A stretch of DNA of 33,886 nt, from positions 1 to 33,886 of IMG/VR virus record IMGVR_UViG_3300007735_000644, one strand, 5' to 3'. The DNA is from a virus. A program made the position numbers and the translations under genes. Below, piece after piece: positions 21,859 through 29,265 of the stretch. Positions within the stretch are counted from its first letter, which is position 1. The number at the start of each line of letters is the position of its first letter. The notes below the pieces were generated by a model. That model did not search any database, was not told the origin of the DNA, and worked only from the letters and a program-made list of their open reading frames with translations.

Positions 21859-21951
21859 CGGGGAAAATGGAAGAAAAGTGTAAACCCTTTATTTTAAAGG
21901 GGTTATATGCGATATTATCGGACATTGGAATACTTTAATTGGAAATACCCC

Positions 21952-21979
21952 TTGCAAAGCCCTGTTTTTATGGTATTAT
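21952..21979 (+). promoter_or_regulatory. Host-type promoter at leaderless spacing (copy 1)
   Basis: TTGCAA, 16-base spacer ending TGG (extended -10), TATTAT, then 6 bases to the ATG at 21986. No Shine-Dalgarno. The same geometry recurs at 24405 and 27858. Confidence 0.8.
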
Positions 21980-21985
21980 TTGGGT

Positions 21986-24283
21986 ATGCAGAATTCTACC
22001 CACACGGCTTCGACCGCCCCCAACACGGCCACCAAGTCCGTGCTCGCTCGTCTCTTGGCGACTGAAAACATTTCGGTGGAGCACTCCGATGTGCCCACTG
22101 CTGCGTTCGACCTGAAGTCGCGTACCCTCATCCTGCCGCGTTGGAAGGACATGAGCAATTCGCTCTACGATATGCTTGTGGGTCACGAGGTGAGCCACGC
22201 CCTGAACACGCCGCAGAACGGTTGGACTGCGGACAGCAAGACTCTTGCCGCCAAGCACGGCGTGAGCGACGGCGTGGCTCGTCAGTACCTCAACATCGCG
22301 GAAGACGCTCGCATCGAACGGCTCATCAAGAACAAGTTCCCCGGTCTTCGTGCGGACTTCTTCAAGGGCTACGGCGAACTCCACGCGAAGAATTTCTTCG
22401 ACACCGCCGGTCAGGCGTGGTCGGACATGTGCCTCGGTGATCGCGTGAACCTCCACTTCAAGTTGGGTCTGCACACTGGTGCGAGCATCACCTTCACCGC
22501 GTCGGAGCAGACCATCGTGGACGCGCTCGACGCTGCGAACACTTGGGCGGATGCCGTTGCTGCGGCTGATGCCATGCTTGCGGTTGACGCGGCTAAGTGG
22601 CAGAAGGAAAAGCAGCAGAGCGAGAGCGAGAGCGGCGAGGCTGTTCCGTCTGACGGCGAGGGCGAGGCGAGCGAGAACCAGTCGTCTGATTCGCAGACCG
22701 GTGAGGGCGAGTCCAAGCAGGAGAGCGGCAACACCAAGCAGGACGGTGGCGAGCGGTCTGCTCCCAGCGCGGCTAGCACCCCTGATTCGCAGGGTGGCAG
22801 CGGTGCGGGTGATGCCGCGTCGAAGAGCAACGGCAACGCCGCTGCACAGCCGAAGAACGACATGCCCATGCCGCGTACCCAGTCGGCGTTCGACAATGCA
22901 CTCCAGACGCTGAACGAGGCGAAGAAGAGCGGCGGCTACGATGTGATTCGCGTGGGTGTGTGCGAGCCGCAGGATGTCGTGGTGGACTTCAAGACCGTGC
23001 TCGCGGACGCGGAGAGCATCGTGAGCCGCAACCGTCTCACCGTGGAGCCGTTCCGCAGCAGCGAGTACAAGACCGCGAGCACCGCGATGGCTACGGCTTT
23101 CGACCGTCGCAAGGCGGCGGACACTTGGAAGCGTACCGTGATTGCGAAGACGGGTGGCGTTGATCCCCTCCGCATGACGCAGTACAAGTGGAACGAGGAC
23201 ATCTTCCGCCGCACCGCTCGCGTGACCACTGGCAAGAACCACGGCATCGTGATTCTGCTCGACTGGAGCGGTTCCATGCACGGCATCATGCAGCAGACCC
23301 TTGGTCAGTTGCTCATCCTCACGGATTTCTGCCGCATGGCTGGCGTTCCGTTCGAAGTGTTCGCGTTCAGCGACTCGCCGTATATCCCTCTGCCGCAGGG
23401 TGTTGACGCTTACAGCAACGAGGCGTGGGACATTGCTGCCAAGCAGAGCAAGGAGTGGCAGAGCAAGATGAGTGGCAAGGCTGGCACTGCACAGGTGAGC
23501 CTCATCAACTTCTTCAGCAGTCGCATGACTGCTCCGCAGTACGAGCGGATGAAGGGCATCATGTGGAAGCAGTGGGGTTACATTGCGAATGACCGTCGTT
23601 ACCGCATGAGTTCGACCCCGACTGTCGCTGCCCTGTATCACCTGTGCCCTGTGGTGGAGCGTTTCCTCAAGTCCAACCGCATTCAGATTGCCCACACCGT
23701 GGTGCTGACTGACGGCGAAGCGACTGACGGCTTCTATCCCAATGTGAAGTATTCGGGCAATGCCTACGGCAACCATCACCATGTGATGGAGGATGCGGTC
23801 ACTGGCGTGTCTTACGATCTTGATACGCATTGGGAGTACGAAGGCATGACCTCCAAGCAGTTTCAGCGTGGCTCGGTGCGTTGGGACAAGCCGTACAATG
23901 CGTCGGTGTGTGCCGCGATTGACATTCTGCGTCGTCGCACGGGTTCCAAGGTGCACTGGATCGGTCTGTCGGAGCGGTCTGGTGCTACGGTTCCGAGCAT
24001 GGGCGGCTTCGTGCCTGACGCGAAGGGCAACAACTGGAGCCGCGACGGCTACGCTCGTGGTCGCGCTGGTGGTTTCGACACTGCGGTGATCGCTGCTGCT
24101 GCTCGTTTCGGTGGTGCAGGCAATGATTCGTGGCTCAACAAGCAGTTGGACAAGATGGACGAGAAGATTGACGGTGCAAAGACCGCTCGTACCCTCGTCA
24201 CCGCTGTGGTGAACAAGCAGGCGATGGCAAATTCCATGCGTTCGCTGGCCACGATCATCGGAGAGTACCTCGCACTCGCGTGA
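21986..24283 (+). CDS. Zincin-VWA protein (CobT/DUF2201-like)
   Basis: 765 aa from the ATG at 21986 (a TTG six bases upstream is in frame but lies in the promoter gap). Residues ~40-150: metallopeptidase-like domain with VGHEVSHAL (His67, Glu68, His71) and NIAEDARIE (Glu106 a possible third ligand). Residues ~205-295: acidic Ser/Glu/Gly-rich linker. Residues ~415-620: von Willebrand A domain with an intact MIDAS (DWSGS, Asp426; STPT around 543; LTDGEATDG, Asp576). Such proteins work with MoxR/CobS AAA+ ATPases, encoded just downstream. In phages they are often labelled cobalt chelatase CobT, but nothing here points to cobalamin. Codon use is far more GC-rich than in the late genes. Confidence 0.9.
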   Translation: MQNSTHTASTAPNTATKSVLARLLATENISVEHSDVPTAAFDLKSRTLILPRWKDMSNSLYDMLVGHEVSHALNTPQNGWTADSKTLAAKHGVSDGVARQYLNIAEDARIERLIKNKFPGLRADFFKGYGELHAKNFFDTAGQAWSDMCLGDRVNLHFKLGLHTGASITFTASEQTIVDALDAANTWADAVAAADAMLAVDAAKWQKEKQQSESESGEAVPSDGEGEASENQSSDSQTGEGESKQESGNTKQDGGERSAPSAASTPDSQGGSGAGDAASKSNGNAAAQPKNDMPMPRTQSAFDNALQTLNEAKKSGGYDVIRVGVCEPQDVVVDFKTVLADAESIVSRNRLTVEPFRSSEYKTASTAMATAFDRRKAADTWKRTVIAKTGGVDPLRMTQYKWNEDIFRRTARVTTGKNHGIVILLDWSGSMHGIMQQTLGQLLILTDFCRMAGVPFEVFAFSDSPYIPLPQGVDAYSNEAWDIAAKQSKEWQSKMSGKAGTAQVSLINFFSSRMTAPQYERMKGIMWKQWGYIANDRRYRMSSTPTVAALYHLCPVVERFLKSNRIQIAHTVVLTDGEATDGFYPNVKYSGNAYGNHHHVMEDAVTGVSYDLDTHWEYEGMTSKQFQRGSVRWDKPYNASVCAAIDILRRRTGSKVHWIGLSERSGATVPSMGGFVPDAKGNNWSRDGYARGRAGGFDTAVIAAAARFGGAGNDSWLNKQLDKMDEKIDGAKTARTLVTAVVNKQAMANSMRSLATIIGEYLALA

Positions 24284-24298
24284 TTCGCGTGAATTCAC

Positions 24299-24354
24299 GC
24301 CCCTCTGGAGCAGTAAATTCTGCAAAAATACCGTAAACCCTGCTCCAGAGGGGC
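24299..24354 (+). terminator. Perfect 15-bp inverted repeat, probable terminator
   Basis: GCCCCTCTGGAGCAG and CTGCTCCAGAGGGGC flank a 26-base loop and are followed by TTTAGG. It lies between the VWA gene and the promoter of the ATPase gene. The long loop and short T-run leave room for another role, such as protein binding or RNA processing. Confidence 0.65.
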
Positions 24355-24404
24355 TTTAGGCACTCAATTATCGGACTATTTTAGTCCAATTTCGCAAAAA
24401 ACCC

Positions 24405-24432
24405 TTGACAGAACCCCAATATCTGGTAAATT
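24405..24432 (+). promoter_or_regulatory. Host-type promoter at leaderless spacing (copy 2)
   Basis: TTGACA (perfect -35), 16-base spacer ending TGG, TAAATT, 6 bases, then ATG at 24439. No Shine-Dalgarno. Confidence 0.8.
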
Positions 24433-24438
24433 ATTGAT

Positions 24439-25788
24439 ATGAAGAACTCTACCTACACTCTCACTTCGACCCAGCACTCCTTCGTGACCGCCATCCGCCC
24501 GCACCTCGCTGCTTTCGGTCTGTCCGCGAAGACCACTGACAACGGGCAGAGCGTCCAGTTCTCGCCGCTGCTGAAGGCGGCGCAGAAGGCGGGCTACTCC
24601 GCTGTGCCCGCGTGGTGCATGGAGAAGAGCCGCAAGTGCGGTCGCGGCATGTATGTGCTGCCGGAACTGTTCGCTGACGATTCGGCGTTCGTTGTGACCG
24701 CCGTGAAGCGTGGTCGCCCTTCGGGTGCGAAGACCGTGAAGACCACTGTGAAGACGGTGGATCGTGCTGCTGCTGCTCTCGCGTCGGTTGTGGCTGATTC
24801 GTCGGTGGCGACGAACATCACCGGCAGCGGTGCGGTGAACATCACTGCCGATGCGGCTTGCATGGTTGCGAGCCTGACGGGCGGCGAGCGGAATTCGTTC
24901 ACGCCGGACACCGACAGCAACTACATTCCGTGGGGCTACCACGGCGAAATTGAGACGATCATCGCGTCCAAGGCGTTCTGCCCCGTGTTCATCACGGGCA
25001 TGAGCGGCAACGGCAAGACCACGATGGTGGAGCAGGTGTGTGCGAAGTTGGGACGCGAGTGCATCCGCGTGAACTTCACCGTGCAGACCGACGAGGACGA
25101 ACTGCTTGGCGGCTTCCGCCTCATCGCGGGCGAGACGAAGTTCGTGCCCGGTCCCGTGCTCGTGGCGATGGAGCGTGGTGCGGTGCTGCTGCTTGACGAG
25201 GTTGACCTTGGCGGTCACGCCATCATGTGCCTCCAGTCGGTGCTGGAGGGCAAGGGCAAGTTCATTCCGAAGATTGGTCAGTATGTGCGTCCTGCGGCGG
25301 GCTTCACCATCGTTGCCACCGCCAACACCAAGGGCAAGGGCAGTGCGGACGGTCGCTTCGCGGGCACGAATCAGTTGAACGAAGCCTTCCTCGACCGCTT
25401 CCACTTCTGCTACGAGCAGGATTACGCGGAGCCGAAGGTGGAGAAGAAGATTCTCAAGAAGTATGCCGCGAGCCTCGGCGTGAACGACGATTCGTTCATG
25501 GACAATCTGGTGCAGTGGGCTGACTTGGTTCGCAAGTCGTTCAAGCAGCAGATCGTGAACGAGATCATCACCACCCGCCGTCTGCGTGACATCGTGTTCG
25601 CGTTCAGCGTGTTCGGTGACAAGATGCAGGCGATTGAGCGTTGCGTGAGCCGCTTCGATGAGGAGACGAAGAACGCCTTCACGGAGTTCTACACCAAGAT
25701 CGACGCGACCGCCAAGGCGGCTGACGCTCCTGCGGCGACGGAGACGGCTTCGACTGTCGATGCCAACTCCACCAAGTGCCCGTTCTGA
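24439..25788 (+). CDS. MoxR/CobS-like AAA+ ATPase
   Basis: 449 aa. Residues 1-100 form an extra N-terminal domain (SAVPAWCMEKSRKCGRGMYV) ending in KRGRPSGAK, an AT-hook-like motif; the gene at 26196 is a stand-alone version of it. The AAA+ module follows: Walker A GMSGNGKTT (187-195), Walker B AVLLLDEVD (249-257), sensor 1 ATANT (about 293-297), and LDRF with a likely arginine finger near 320. MoxR-type ATPases remodel proteins or insert metals together with VWA partners, and the upstream gene is such a partner. CobS-like genes are known in T4-like cyanophages. Each of the two genes has its own promoter. Confidence 0.9.
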   Translation: MKNSTYTLTSTQHSFVTAIRPHLAAFGLSAKTTDNGQSVQFSPLLKAAQKAGYSAVPAWCMEKSRKCGRGMYVLPELFADDSAFVVTAVKRGRPSGAKTVKTTVKTVDRAAAALASVVADSSVATNITGSGAVNITADAACMVASLTGGERNSFTPDTDSNYIPWGYHGEIETIIASKAFCPVFITGMSGNGKTTMVEQVCAKLGRECIRVNFTVQTDEDELLGGFRLIAGETKFVPGPVLVAMERGAVLLLDEVDLGGHAIMCLQSVLEGKGKFIPKIGQYVRPAAGFTIVATANTKGKGSADGRFAGTNQLNEAFLDRFHFCYEQDYAEPKVEKKILKKYAASLGVNDDSFMDNLVQWADLVRKSFKQQIVNEIITTRRLRDIVFAFSVFGDKMQAIERCVSRFDEETKNAFTEFYTKIDATAKAADAPAATETASTVDANSTKCPF

Positions 25789-25806
25789 TAGAAAGGAAAC
25801 CACACC

Positions 25807-26163
25807 ATGACCACCACACTGCATCCACTCGTCAAGGGCATCACCATCAGCACCGATGACCACGAGACTTTCTTCAAGCGTCGCATCCACCTGTTTCTCG
25901 CCAACGGCTACGGCGTTAGCGTCGTCTACGGCACTGGCATCTACTCGCACACTCTCAACGGAGAGCGTCACGGCAAACTGCCGCCTGATGTGGGCAACGC
26001 CAAGCCTGAAGCGTCTTCGGTGGAAGTCGCAGTGATTCACCCCAACGGCAGTTTCGTGCCGTTCACTGGTGGAGATGAAGTTCGCGGATGGACTGACCTC
26101 GACACCGTTTTCAAGATTGTGGCATGGGCTGCTGCCCTGCCGTCTGCTACTGTTACTGCCTGA
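25807..26163 (+). CDS. Unknown protein in the AAA+/VWA operon (118 aa)
   Basis: AGGAA precedes the ATG, 18 bases after the ATPase stop, so it is likely co-transcribed. The product has GYGVSVVYGTGIYSHTLNGE and ASSVEVAVIHPNGSFVPFTG segments typical of a small alpha/beta or beta-barrel domain, and a hydrophobic C-terminus (IVAWAAAL). No family recognised. Location suggests an accessory factor of the ATPase system. Confidence 0.75.
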   Translation: MTTTLHPLVKGITISTDDHETFFKRRIHLFLANGYGVSVVYGTGIYSHTLNGERHGKLPPDVGNAKPEASSVEVAVIHPNGSFVPFTGGDEVRGWTDLDTVFKIVAWAAALPSATVTA

Positions 26164-26195
26164 TTCACTAAACTCTTTTCACAAGGAAAAACAAA

Positions 26196-26546
26196 ATGAA
26201 CACCAACAACAACATCATGCTCGCTTCGTACACTCCTGGACAGATCGCTTTCATCTCGTGGCTTCAGGGCAACCGTGACAAGATTGCCGTGTTTGACGAG
26301 TGCACCGTGAGCCGCAAGGACTTGCTCGCCCTGCTTCAGAGCGACTCTGCCTACATTGCCGTGCCTGCGTGGATCGCTGCTCCCAAGTCTCGCCGTGCTG
26401 GTCGCGGAAACTACTTGATTCCTGAAATCAATGCCGATGTGGCTACTCTGGTCGTGAACGGCAACAAGCGTGGACGCAAGGCAGGCAGCAAGAATGTGAA
26501 GGGAACCGCTCCTGCGGCTCCCGCCCCCACGCCGGTGAAGGCTTGA
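26196..26546 (+). CDS. Stand-alone copy of the ATPase N-terminal domain
   Basis: 116 aa, AAGGA upstream. IAVPAWIAAPKSRRAGRGNY, then LIPEINADVATLVVNGNKRG and RKAGSK align with the ATPase residues ~54-98 (SAVPAW...CGRGMYVLPELFADDSAFVV...KRGRPSGAK). It lacks all ATPase motifs. It may compete with the ATPase for a partner or bind DNA through the basic RGRK motif. The Ala/Pro-rich tail (APAAPAPTPVKA) is probably disordered. A tRNA gene starts 8 bases after its stop. Confidence 0.8.
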   Translation: MNTNNNIMLASYTPGQIAFISWLQGNRDKIAVFDECTVSRKDLLALLQSDSAYIAVPAWIAAPKSRRAGRGNYLIPEINADVATLVVNGNKRGRKAGSKNVKGTAPAAPAPTPVKA

Positions 26547-26553
26547 TTCACCC

Positions 26554-26626
26554 GTCCCCGTAACTCAGTGGATAGAGTAGCCGCCTTCTAAGCGGCAAGT
26601 CAGTGGTTCGAATCCACTCGGGGACG
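26554..26626 (+). tRNA. tRNA-Arg (anticodon UCU)
   Basis: 73 bases with a full cloverleaf: acceptor GTCCCCG/CGGGGAC, D stem ACTC/GAGT, anticodon arm GCCGC-CTTCTAA-GCGGC, T arm AGTGG-TTCGAAT-CCACT. No CCA is encoded. It reads AGA, a codon more likely in the AT-richer late genes than in a GC-rich host. Confidence 0.95.
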
Positions 26627-26666
26627 CTTCTCGTGACACTTTCGCAAACTCTACAGGAAACACCGC

Positions 26667-26858
26667 ATGTGCAAGCAACTTCGAATGAGCGACTTTGAGC
26701 GTTCCATCCGTTCCGACTCCCCAATGTATCCGCATGACCCCGATGCAGACTGGGATGATGATTGTATCGAATTTCCGTCTGACGAGGATATGGAAGGCGA
26801 TGTGACGGACACCGCCGAATATCCCGACGAGCCGTGGGATGATGAAGTCGCGGACTAA
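26667..26858 (+). CDS. Small, very acidic protein
   Basis: 63 aa with GGAAA upstream of the ATG. More than a third of the residues after position 18 are Asp or Glu (DPDADWDDDCIEF, DEDMEGDVTDTAEYPDEPWD). Small acidic phage proteins often mimic DNA or bind basic host proteins; here this is only a possibility. It lies between two tRNAs in the early block. Confidence 0.65.
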   Translation: MCKQLRMSDFERSIRSDSPMYPHDPDADWDDDCIEFPSDEDMEGDVTDTAEYPDEPWDDEVAD

Positions 26859-26874
26859 CAGCAGAAAGAAAAAA

Positions 26875-27174
26875 ATGAACACCGCCACCGAAACAACTGA
26901 ATTCCCCCATCTCACGATTAGCCTGTCTCCCATTCACCTTCACGACATTGTTGTTCTGCTTGAAGACTTTGTTCCCAAGCAGGAAAGCAAGTATTCGCTC
27001 AAGAGGCTACTCATGGCACTGCGGCAGAACGGTTACGAATCATTTGCCGCACTGGAAACGGTGGCGAGCAAACAGTTGAGTGCTCAACTCTCTCATCTAT
27101 TTGAGAGTGGACTGGCAGAACGATACACTAGAAATAGGAATAGTGAAACCGATTCTCCACCTGACGCGGACTAA
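26875..27174 (+). CDS. Small helical protein of unknown function (99 aa)
   Basis: The ATG at 26875 follows a purine-rich AGAAAG stretch; an in-frame start 36 bases upstream overlaps the previous gene. The core is helical (LHDIVVLLEDFVPKQESKYS, LKRLLMALRQNGYESFAALE) and could be a winged-helix or other small DNA-binding fold, but no motif is decisive. The C-terminus is charged. A tRNA follows 9 bases after the stop. Confidence 0.65.
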   Translation: MNTATETTEFPHLTISLSPIHLHDIVVLLEDFVPKQESKYSLKRLLMALRQNGYESFAALETVASKQLSAQLSHLFESGLAERYTRNRNSETDSPPDAD

Positions 27175-27183
27175 TTGAATAAC

Positions 27184-27256
27184 GGGTGCGTAGTCCAACG
27201 GCAGAGACAGAGGACTCAAAATCTTCACAGTGTGGGTTCGAATCCCACCGCACCTA
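27184..27256 (+). tRNA. tRNA with CAA anticodon (Leu by code), short variable loop
   Basis: 73 bases: acceptor GGGTGCG/CGCACCT (one G:U), anticodon arm GAGGA-CTCAAAA-TCTTC, T arm GTGGG-TTCGAAT-CCCAC. The anticodon is CAA, normally leucine. However, leucine tRNAs carry a long variable arm, and this one has only 5 bases (ACAGT). The D stem is weak (GTC/GAC). No CCA is encoded. Confidence 0.85.
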
Positions 27257-27302
27257 TTCGAATAGATACCTTGCCCCATTAGTAGAGTTCTGCGGGCAAC
27301 AG

Positions 27303-27334
27303 CCCTGATAGCGTAGTGCTATCAGGGTTTTTTT
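27303..27334 (+). terminator. Strong Rho-independent terminator
   Basis: CCCTGATAGC / GCTATCAGGG perfect 10-bp stem, 5-base loop and seven T. It closes the tRNA-containing early operon. Confidence 0.95.
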
Positions 27335-27857
27335 ATTTCTACAGGGATTTCCTGCGTATGTGGAAACCCTGAACACGCGCTAGAAACAGGGGTGTTACGG
27401 GTGGGTACGCTCTCGGCAGGTAGTCGGGGACCAGTCATTTCGGGGGGTGGTCCGGTGGGGGGTGGGCCGGCTAGCCCAACCCGAAGAATTCCGAAAGGCA
27501 AAATTCAAAAATTGGGACTCCTAGAAATCGCTAAAGTAGATTTCAAATATTGGGACTCCTATGAGCCTCTCCCAAGATTTCAAATATTCAGCACCCACAC
27601 GGCGTTTCGCCACACGCTCTGCCTACGCTCTGCCCTCCCAATCCCCATACGCCACGCCCCAAGCCCGCCCTAGCCCCGTATAGCCCGTCCGTATACCCAC
27701 GCCCAACCCCGTTTCCCCACACCGCCGCCCCGCAAATCCACGCCACAGTTTTCAAATATTGACACCCCTTTGACCACGGAGTAAAAACTTTATCCTTTAC
27801 CTAATTCCTGAAGTAAAACCCCGTAAGTGTTTTAGTAGGGAAAAATATTCGTACCCC
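27335..27857. other. Non-coding region with iterons and G-rich to C-rich switch
   Basis: About 520 bases without a credible gene. A G-rich part (27386-27472, runs of six G) is followed by AT-rich repeats and then a C-rich part (27600-27740). The 20-base sequence TTCAAAAATTGGGACTCCTA (27504) recurs with one mismatch at 27542. The core TTTCAAATATT recurs at 27578 and 27750. The first three units are spaced 38 and 37 bases apart. It could be an origin, a regulator site or an untranslated RNA. Confidence 0.6.
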
Positions 27858-27885
27858 TTGCAGTTCGCCCTGCCTGTGTTATACT
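27858..27885 (+). promoter_or_regulatory. Host-type promoter at leaderless spacing (copy 3)
   Basis: TTGCAG, 16-base spacer ending TGT, TATACT, 6 bases, then ATG at 27892. It shares the upstream context ACCCCTTGCA with copy 1. Confidence 0.8.
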
Positions 27886-27891
27886 AGTGGC

Positions 27892-28254
27892 ATGAGCACA
27901 CCGCAACAGCACCACCTGTTTGCACGGTTCACCGAAGCAGACGGTGTGGACAAAGAGTTTATCTACTGGGTGGAGTTCCGCCCTGTGGAACACCTCAACA
28001 GTTGCCGCATCAACTTGTGCCATCCCGAAGCCCCGTTTTGGAAACAGGTTCCTGTGGTCACTACAGTCATGCGAAAAATGGAGAAGAGTGGGCGGAACGA
28101 GTGGACGGTGGGATTGGAAACGGCACGAGTGCTGTGGGCCATGTTGATTCGCAACGGCTGGTACACCACCGTTCACGACGCACAGGTGGGCAAGCCGGTA
28201 TGGCTGATTTCGGTGGAAGACCTCGTGAAGATTGTGGAAGGACAAAACGCATGA
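27892..28254 (+). CDS. Unknown early protein 1 of a three-gene overlap cluster
   Basis: 120 aa, leaderless start. Contains RINLCHPEAPFWKQVPVV and a helical block WTVGLETARVLWAMLIRNGW. The block ARVLWA resembles AQALWA and ARILWA near the ends of the next two genes, so the three may be diverged relatives. Hydrophobic and Trp-rich but no membrane span. Stop overlaps the next ATG (ATGA). No family recognised. Confidence 0.8.
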   Translation: MSTPQQHHLFARFTEADGVDKEFIYWVEFRPVEHLNSCRINLCHPEAPFWKQVPVVTTVMRKMEKSGRNEWTVGLETARVLWAMLIRNGWYTTVHDAQVGKPVWLISVEDLVKIVEGQNA

Positions 28255-28697
28255 GTACTCCCCTTCACCACTTCTCGCCCCAAACGCTATTGGAAACCCT
28301 GCCCGCGTTGGGTCGGTTGGACATTGCCGCAAAATACACAAAGCCTACAGAACACCTGTGGGGGCTGCGTGACTGCCGTGACCCCTCGGAGAACGGCAGT
28401 TTCACCTCACGCCTGTGGTTCAAGCCTGCTTGGGAGCGGTGGGGCGGGGTGTGGGTGGTGAACGGCATGAGCGTGGAGTTGTGTGGCTACGCTGCGGGCG
28501 TGAAATGGGACACAGCCCTGCGTGTGCGTAGCGTGTCTGCTCCCAAGATCGTTCATGCCTTTGAAGGTGGTCGCGTGTGGATGGAGTGGAGCCACGCACA
28601 AGCCCTGTGGGCAGCGTGTCGTGAGCGGTGGCTGGAGTACAGCACAGACAGCGGCAGGTTTTGGTTGATGTGGCCCAACAAATGGGAGCAGATATGA
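28251..28697 (+). CDS. Unknown early protein 2 of the overlap cluster
   Basis: 148 aa; ATGA overlap with the first gene, with GGAAGGA upstream. Trp-rich beta-type sequence (SRLWFKPAWERWGGVWVVNG) and a C-terminal helix WSHAQALWAACRERWLEY followed by a FWLMWPN end. No domain recognised. Expressed by translational coupling. Codon use is GC-rich like the rest of the early block. Confidence 0.8.
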   Translation: MSTPLHHFSPQTLLETLPALGRLDIAAKYTKPTEHLWGLRDCRDPSENGSFTSRLWFKPAWERWGGVWVVNGMSVELCGYAAGVKWDTALRVRSVSAPKIVHAFEGGRVWMEWSHAQALWAACRERWLEYSTDSGRFWLMWPNKWEQI

Positions 28698-29145: not shown

Positions 29146-29265
29146 ATGGGTGACGCTTTTATCAATCTGTTGGGTATTGCGGTGGCAGCGGTAGTGTTCT
29201 CGTTTGCGTTTACTGCGGCTGACCGAGTGTTCGGTGGCAAGATTCGCAAGCGACGAGCCAAGTAA
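29146..29265 (+). CDS. 39-residue single-span membrane protein
   Basis: AAAGGAG upstream and own late promoter. Sequence begins MGDAFINLLGIAVAAVVFSF, one clear membrane helix to about residue 25, then a basic end (GGKIRKRRAK). By the positive-inside rule the C-terminus is in the cytoplasm. Small late membrane proteins can be holins, antiholins or lysis regulators; this cannot be decided here. Confidence 0.8.
   Translation: MGDAFINLLGIAVAAVVFSFAFTAADRVFGGKIRKRRAK

Follow-up and report, generated by a model that had tools for sequence, protein, structure and literature searches.

The window analysed here, a 33,886-nt fragment of an uncultivated phage from IMG/VR, carries three sigma70-type promoters whose transcripts very probably begin directly at the start codon, and all three are best explained by leaderless initiation (Table 1). 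Host RNA polymerase with its main sigma factor would initiate on the A of the ATG, so that the mRNA would open with 5'-AUG, without leader or Shine-Dalgarno sequence. The ribosome would then recognise the 5'-terminal AUG of the first gene directly, and later genes on the same transcript would be translated via Shine-Dalgarno sites. For a leaderless subset that includes promoters 1 and 2, a regulator at TTATCGGAC probably contacts RNA polymerase from a fixed DNA face. We infer the start on the A, the leaderless translation and the regulator from what is observed, namely the geometry, its conservation, the absence of Shine-Dalgarno sequences and the association with an upstream box.

Table 1. 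Features of the window around the three predicted leaderless promoters
Feature	Position	Strand	Remarks
ATTATCGGAC box, putative regulator site	21914..21923	+	28 bases upstream of promoter 1 -35
Promoter 1	21952..21985	+	TTGCAA -16- TATTAT -6- ATG; predicted transcription start 21986; conserved in L055-L058
Leaderless gene 1 (predicted)	21986..24283	+	CobT/VWA-like product of 765 aa, homologous to T4-like cyanophage 'peptidase'; N-terminus aligns in relatives
ATTATCGGAC box, putative regulator site	24367..24376	+	28 bases upstream of promoter 2 -35
Promoter 2	24405..24438	+	TTGACA -16- TAAATT -6- ATG; predicted transcription start 24439; conserved in L004-L006
Leaderless gene 2 (predicted)	24439..25788	+	449-aa CobS-like AAA+ ATPase
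Gene in promoter 2 unit	25807..26163	+	Shine-Dalgarno AAAGGA
Gene in promoter 2 unit	26196..26546	+	Shine-Dalgarno AAGGA
tRNA-Arg(tct)	26554..26627	+	Downstream of promoter 2
tRNA-Leu(caa)	27184..27256	+	Downstream of promoter 2
Intrinsic terminator-like hairpin and T tract	27301..27336	+	Likely end of promoter 2 unit
Promoter 3	27858..27891	+	TTGCAG -16- TATACT -6- ATG; predicted transcription start 27892
Leaderless gene 3 (predicted)	27892..28254	+	120-aa protein, function not assigned
Second gene of promoter 3 unit	28251..28697	+	ATGA overlap; Shine-Dalgarno GAAGGA

All three sites read as originally predicted, with TTGNNN, a 16-base spacer, TAnnnT and exactly six bases before ATG; the first T of the -10 lies 12 bp before the start codon in each case, and the claim that none of the three has a Shine-Dalgarno sequence is correct. 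The prediction had also described the geometry as identical down to a TGn at the end of the spacer, which is true of the window sites (TGG, TGG and TGT) but not of the class to which they belong, where only 15 of 48 related sites carry it. The similar sequence contexts were likewise found, TACCCCTTGCA being common to sites 1 and 3. With both strands of the window scanned, TTGNNN-16-TAnnnT-6-ATG gave exactly three matches against 0.31 expected from dinucleotide shuffles, or 0.02 expected when TGn is included (again with three found), and no shuffle gave as many as three. Because the pattern was chosen post hoc from these very sites, the fair test is the out-of-sample count in relatives, given below. 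The layout of promoter 3 is also present at its orthologues in G001-G003. T4 early promoters are those that unmodified host RNA polymerase transcribes as soon as infection begins, and in T4 middle promoters the MotA box TGCTTtA at -30 replaces the -35; the sites selected in this analysis carry TTG at the -35 position. The 'early' timing originally given to the three promoters is plausible, its ground being their likeness to the host sigma70 promoter. A Bacteroidetes-type promoter (TAnnTTTG) was also considered, and the three -10 regions, judged by eye, do not match it.

Across 16 related records, the pattern TTG-19-TAnnnT-6-ATG was matched 36 times, against six times for the reversed pattern. 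We also scanned for all TTG sites with a 16-18-base spacer and a good -10, picked regardless of start codon, and recorded the distance d from the -10 to the first downstream ATG or GTG heading a frame of at least 50 codons. For 15 records, the window included, this gave 35 sites at d=6, 13 at d=7 and four at d=8, with mostly 0-5 and at most nine at other distances and a broad rise at 12-22, while the reversed sequence of the first 15 records gave no site at d=6, 7 or 8. Over about 1.06 Mb of the clade, 54 of 439 sites fall at d=6-8, and none of these 54 has a Shine-Dalgarno sequence, compared with 23 of the 38 sites at d=18-23 (Fisher 5.5e-12, calculated on sites that are not independent). When homologues are merged, 16 families are found at d=6 and seven at d=7; most other distances have about 2-3. 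Several of the singleton families at d=6-8 are probably chance, and 11-15 families (about a dozen) look firm, with the CobT-like and CobS-like genes, an endonuclease of 309 aa (PHROG 8420) and several small proteins among them.

Scanned in the same way, four control phages (T4, S-SSM4, Mosig and Melnitz) had 20 of 742 sites at d=6-8, with no peak there comparable to that of the clade. Family counts at these distances are closer (20 of 177 in the controls, 20 of 122 in the clade), and the control families are more evenly spread (8, 9 and 3 at d=6, 7 and 8, and up to 9 at other distances), so that at family level the argument is carried by the sharp d=6 peak and by conservation, more than by the raw count; since the controls also have some sites at d=6-8, single calls may be chance. 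Taken as a whole, the class in this uncultivated T4-like phage clade is real and conserved, and its promoters, with spacers of 16-18 bases, are probably leaderless. A second, leadered class has a closely similar core (TTGacn-16-TATACT) and an 18-23-base gap, and it is here that the 23 of 38 Shine-Dalgarno sequences are found. G013, a more distant relative, has its CobS gene under a leadered promoter with a Shine-Dalgarno sequence, which means that leaderlessness is not essential for this gene and that the mode can switch between relatives. Counts of the T4 late-promoter motif TATAAATA/TATAAAT were not above control in most records.

The bases around the start codon point the same way. After six sites (among them a few GTG starts) were removed by hand from the 54, all 48 cleaned leaderless sites begin with ATG, and all 48 have a pyrimidine just before it (C in 33, T in 15), at d=6, 7 and 8 alike, as expected if transcription begins on the A. 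Bacterial RNA polymerase usually prefers a purine at +1 preceded by a pyrimidine. In Mycobacterium tuberculosis, for example, purines occupy 85% of starts, and pyrimidines are common beside them (PMC3898074). The distance itself is also kept, as promoter 1 has no indels across five sequences, and the close relatives of promoter 2 (L004-L006) have a spacer of 17 rather than 16 with the -10 still six bases from the ATG. For the three window promoters, the transcription start would thus lie at the A of the ATG. The central claim of the original prediction, that these mRNAs are leaderless, is therefore well supported, by the peak at d=6-8, the absence of Shine-Dalgarno sequences, the ATG starts, the pyrimidine at -1, the kept distance and the clean reversed control.

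One might suppose instead that the promoters are real but leave a very short leader of 1-5 bases, with translation independent of a Shine-Dalgarno sequence yet not strictly leaderless. The start choice of RNA polymerase does vary by a base or two, and more distant orthologues have 6-9 bases between -10 and ATG, where the values of 7-9 would mean a shifted start or a 1-3-base leader. However, the mode is exactly six (35 of the 52 sites at d=6-8 in the 15 records), which is the spacing that canonically puts +1 on the A, and the pyrimidine found at every one of the three distances fits a start on the A each time, so that we regard a short leader as unlikely. We consider it very unlikely that the hexamers are promoter-like by chance and that the real transcription comes from distant upstream promoters. 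Simple sigma70 scans do yield many promoter-like sites (18 in half of the window, against 11 in shuffles), but chance would not account for the empty reversed sequence at d=6-8, for conservation across lineages, or for a lack of Shine-Dalgarno sequences in exactly this class. That transcription starts here but translation begins further downstream, at start codons with ribosome-binding sites of their own, is hardly credible: we found no points in support, no second in-frame Met occurs until about 55-60 residues into the protein, and the N-terminal residues of relatives align with one another.

Leaderless initiation, which we prefer to these alternatives, is already known from bacteria and from single phage cases. 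Leaderless bacterial genes have as their published signature a TANNNT some 12 bp ahead of the start (PMC3160421), and in Deinococcus a -10 of this kind directs leaderless transcription subject to a spacing requirement, -10-adjacent genes having been verified experimentally (PMC12340547). The phage promoters share with these TA-led bacterial genes, notably of Actinobacteria and Deinococcus-Thermus, the TANNNT about 12 bp before the start, the lack of a Shine-Dalgarno sequence and the presence of leadered genes alongside (PMC3160421, PMC3898074, PMC12340547), but they belong to a T4-like clade and have a clear -35 (TTG) at 16-18, ATG starts and a linked upstream box. The lambda leaderless mRNA (PMC3160421) and predicted mycobacteriophage cases such as Adephagia gene 90 (PMC11373665) resemble them in that the transcript begins at or next to the start codon; those, however, are single genes of temperate phages, whereas here about a dozen families occur in one T4-like clade. 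With the early (sigma70) promoters of T4 and of T4-like cyanophages, pelagiphages and methylophages they share the host-type -35 and -10 and a T4-like backbone, but the 6-8-base peak has no counterpart in T4, S-SSM4, Mosig or Melnitz. In the literature searched, we found no paper joining leaderless mRNA with T4-like phages and no account of a class like this one, conserved among uncultivated T4-like phages and comprising about a dozen leaderless families, and the Far-T4 paper mentions neither promoters nor leaderless genes. Our results point to the layout as a regular alternative to ribosome-binding sites in these phages. Since gene finders that seek Shine-Dalgarno sequences can misplace starts, the class also affects start-codon annotation. 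Efficient translation of 5'-AUG mRNAs would be expected of the host, or of a ribosome modified by the phage, and the class offers a compact model in which leaderless and leadered promoters lie side by side in one genome.

The box upstream of promoters 1 and 2 is missing from promoter 3, and its core TTATCGGAC precedes leaderless promoters in other records too. In the 110 bases upstream, a form of TTATCGGAC was found at 28 of the 54 leaderless sites, at none of the 38 sites of the 18-23 class and at 6 of 121 others. In forward orientation, its gaps to the -35 are 16-18, 27-28, 57-58 and 67-68, i.e., about ten bases or multiples of ten apart. A rough circular test with a period of 10 or 10.5 gave p of about 0.00005-0.0002 when eight values, by family or lineage, were used and 0.0003-0.03 with the four distinct values, figures that are indicative only because the gap values were pooled by hand after viewing. 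In G013, which is more distant and AT-richer, the box is reversed at 29-31 and also stands before some promoters with a longer start distance. We interpret the box, with moderate confidence, as a regulator site. A broader scheme, in which the clade runs leaderless and Shine-Dalgarno programmes from nearly the same core promoter, with part of the leaderless one under a TTATCGGAC-binding regulator at helically phased positions that switches a Shine-Dalgarno-independent regulon, perhaps while host ribosomes or initiation factors are altered, is speculative and rather unlikely. G013 also has, at 43700-70812 (L083-L084), about ten GTCCGATAA copies ahead of minus-strand promoters and, nearby, repeated CTATGACGAACTATGACGG units, an arrangement that looks like a dense regulatory array.

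The phage itself appears to be T4-like, being tied to this group by its CobS/CobT-like proteins and their neighbours, with the T4 core genes read in a 147-kb relative (G006) that holds a T4-type terminase gp17, capsid gp23, polymerase gp43, helicase gp41 and gp32. The G006 terminase is about 59% identical to those of cyanophages such as S-SSM4 and of the Methylophilales phage Melnitz, which makes the clade T4-like yet distinct from cultured groups, and its relatives were drawn from many metagenomes, probably mostly of freshwater. Neither psbA nor WhiB was found in 14 related records, and TerL and CobS queries had no matches in GTDB genome contigs; these negatives are compatible with cyanobacterial as well as actinobacterial hosts. 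Permuted tmRNA genes, which are typical of alpha- and betaproteobacteria and cyanobacteria, are present in three relatives (L067:15221-15501; L073:6387-6801, minus strand; L088:5047-5439), identified in G006 by Rfam RF04321 and in G006, G010 and G008 by ARAGORN, with tags such as ANRMAMAA. Melnitz-like phages also carry permuted tmRNA (PMC9004378). Proteins near leaderless promoters in G006, G010, G003, G008, G005 and G012 end in YALEA or YAMEA, like an ssrA degradation tag; this type of tail is absent from the four control phages and is found on few proteins in the six clade records.

The gene 1 product matches cyanophage proteins annotated 'peptidase' (tblastn) and has no Pfam match, so that its CobT/VWA label comes from reading and context. 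Gene 2 encodes a product with a Pfam AAA_5 match (E=6e-19) and about 60% identity to cyanophage CobS over residues 146-422. For the gene 3 product, a pattern search gave no relatives; by position, a homologous 131-aa product was found in G003, and its gene likewise has a leaderless-type promoter. Downstream genes in the same transcripts were said to have ribosome-binding sites, and these are present at 25807, 26196 and 28251 (Table 1) and at 29147 (AAAGGAG). Genes 1 and 2 are unrelated, though their first codons are near-identical at the DNA level (ATGCAGAATTCTACCCACAC at 21986-22015, ATGAAGAACTCTACCTACAC at 24439-24468) and another G003 gene begins similarly, as if promoter and first codons had been copied as a cassette or formed a downstream initiation signal. 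Between the two genes, at 24304-24350, lies a perfect 14-base inverted repeat (CCCCTCTGGAGCAG/CTGCTCCAGAGGGG) without a T tract, and GTAAACCC/GGGGTTTAC elements are seen again ahead of related promoters. Long antisense open frames run opposite gene 1 (21968-24325, minus strand, 785 aa) and gene 2 (24376-26040, minus strand, 554 aa), probably as a by-product of strong codon bias.
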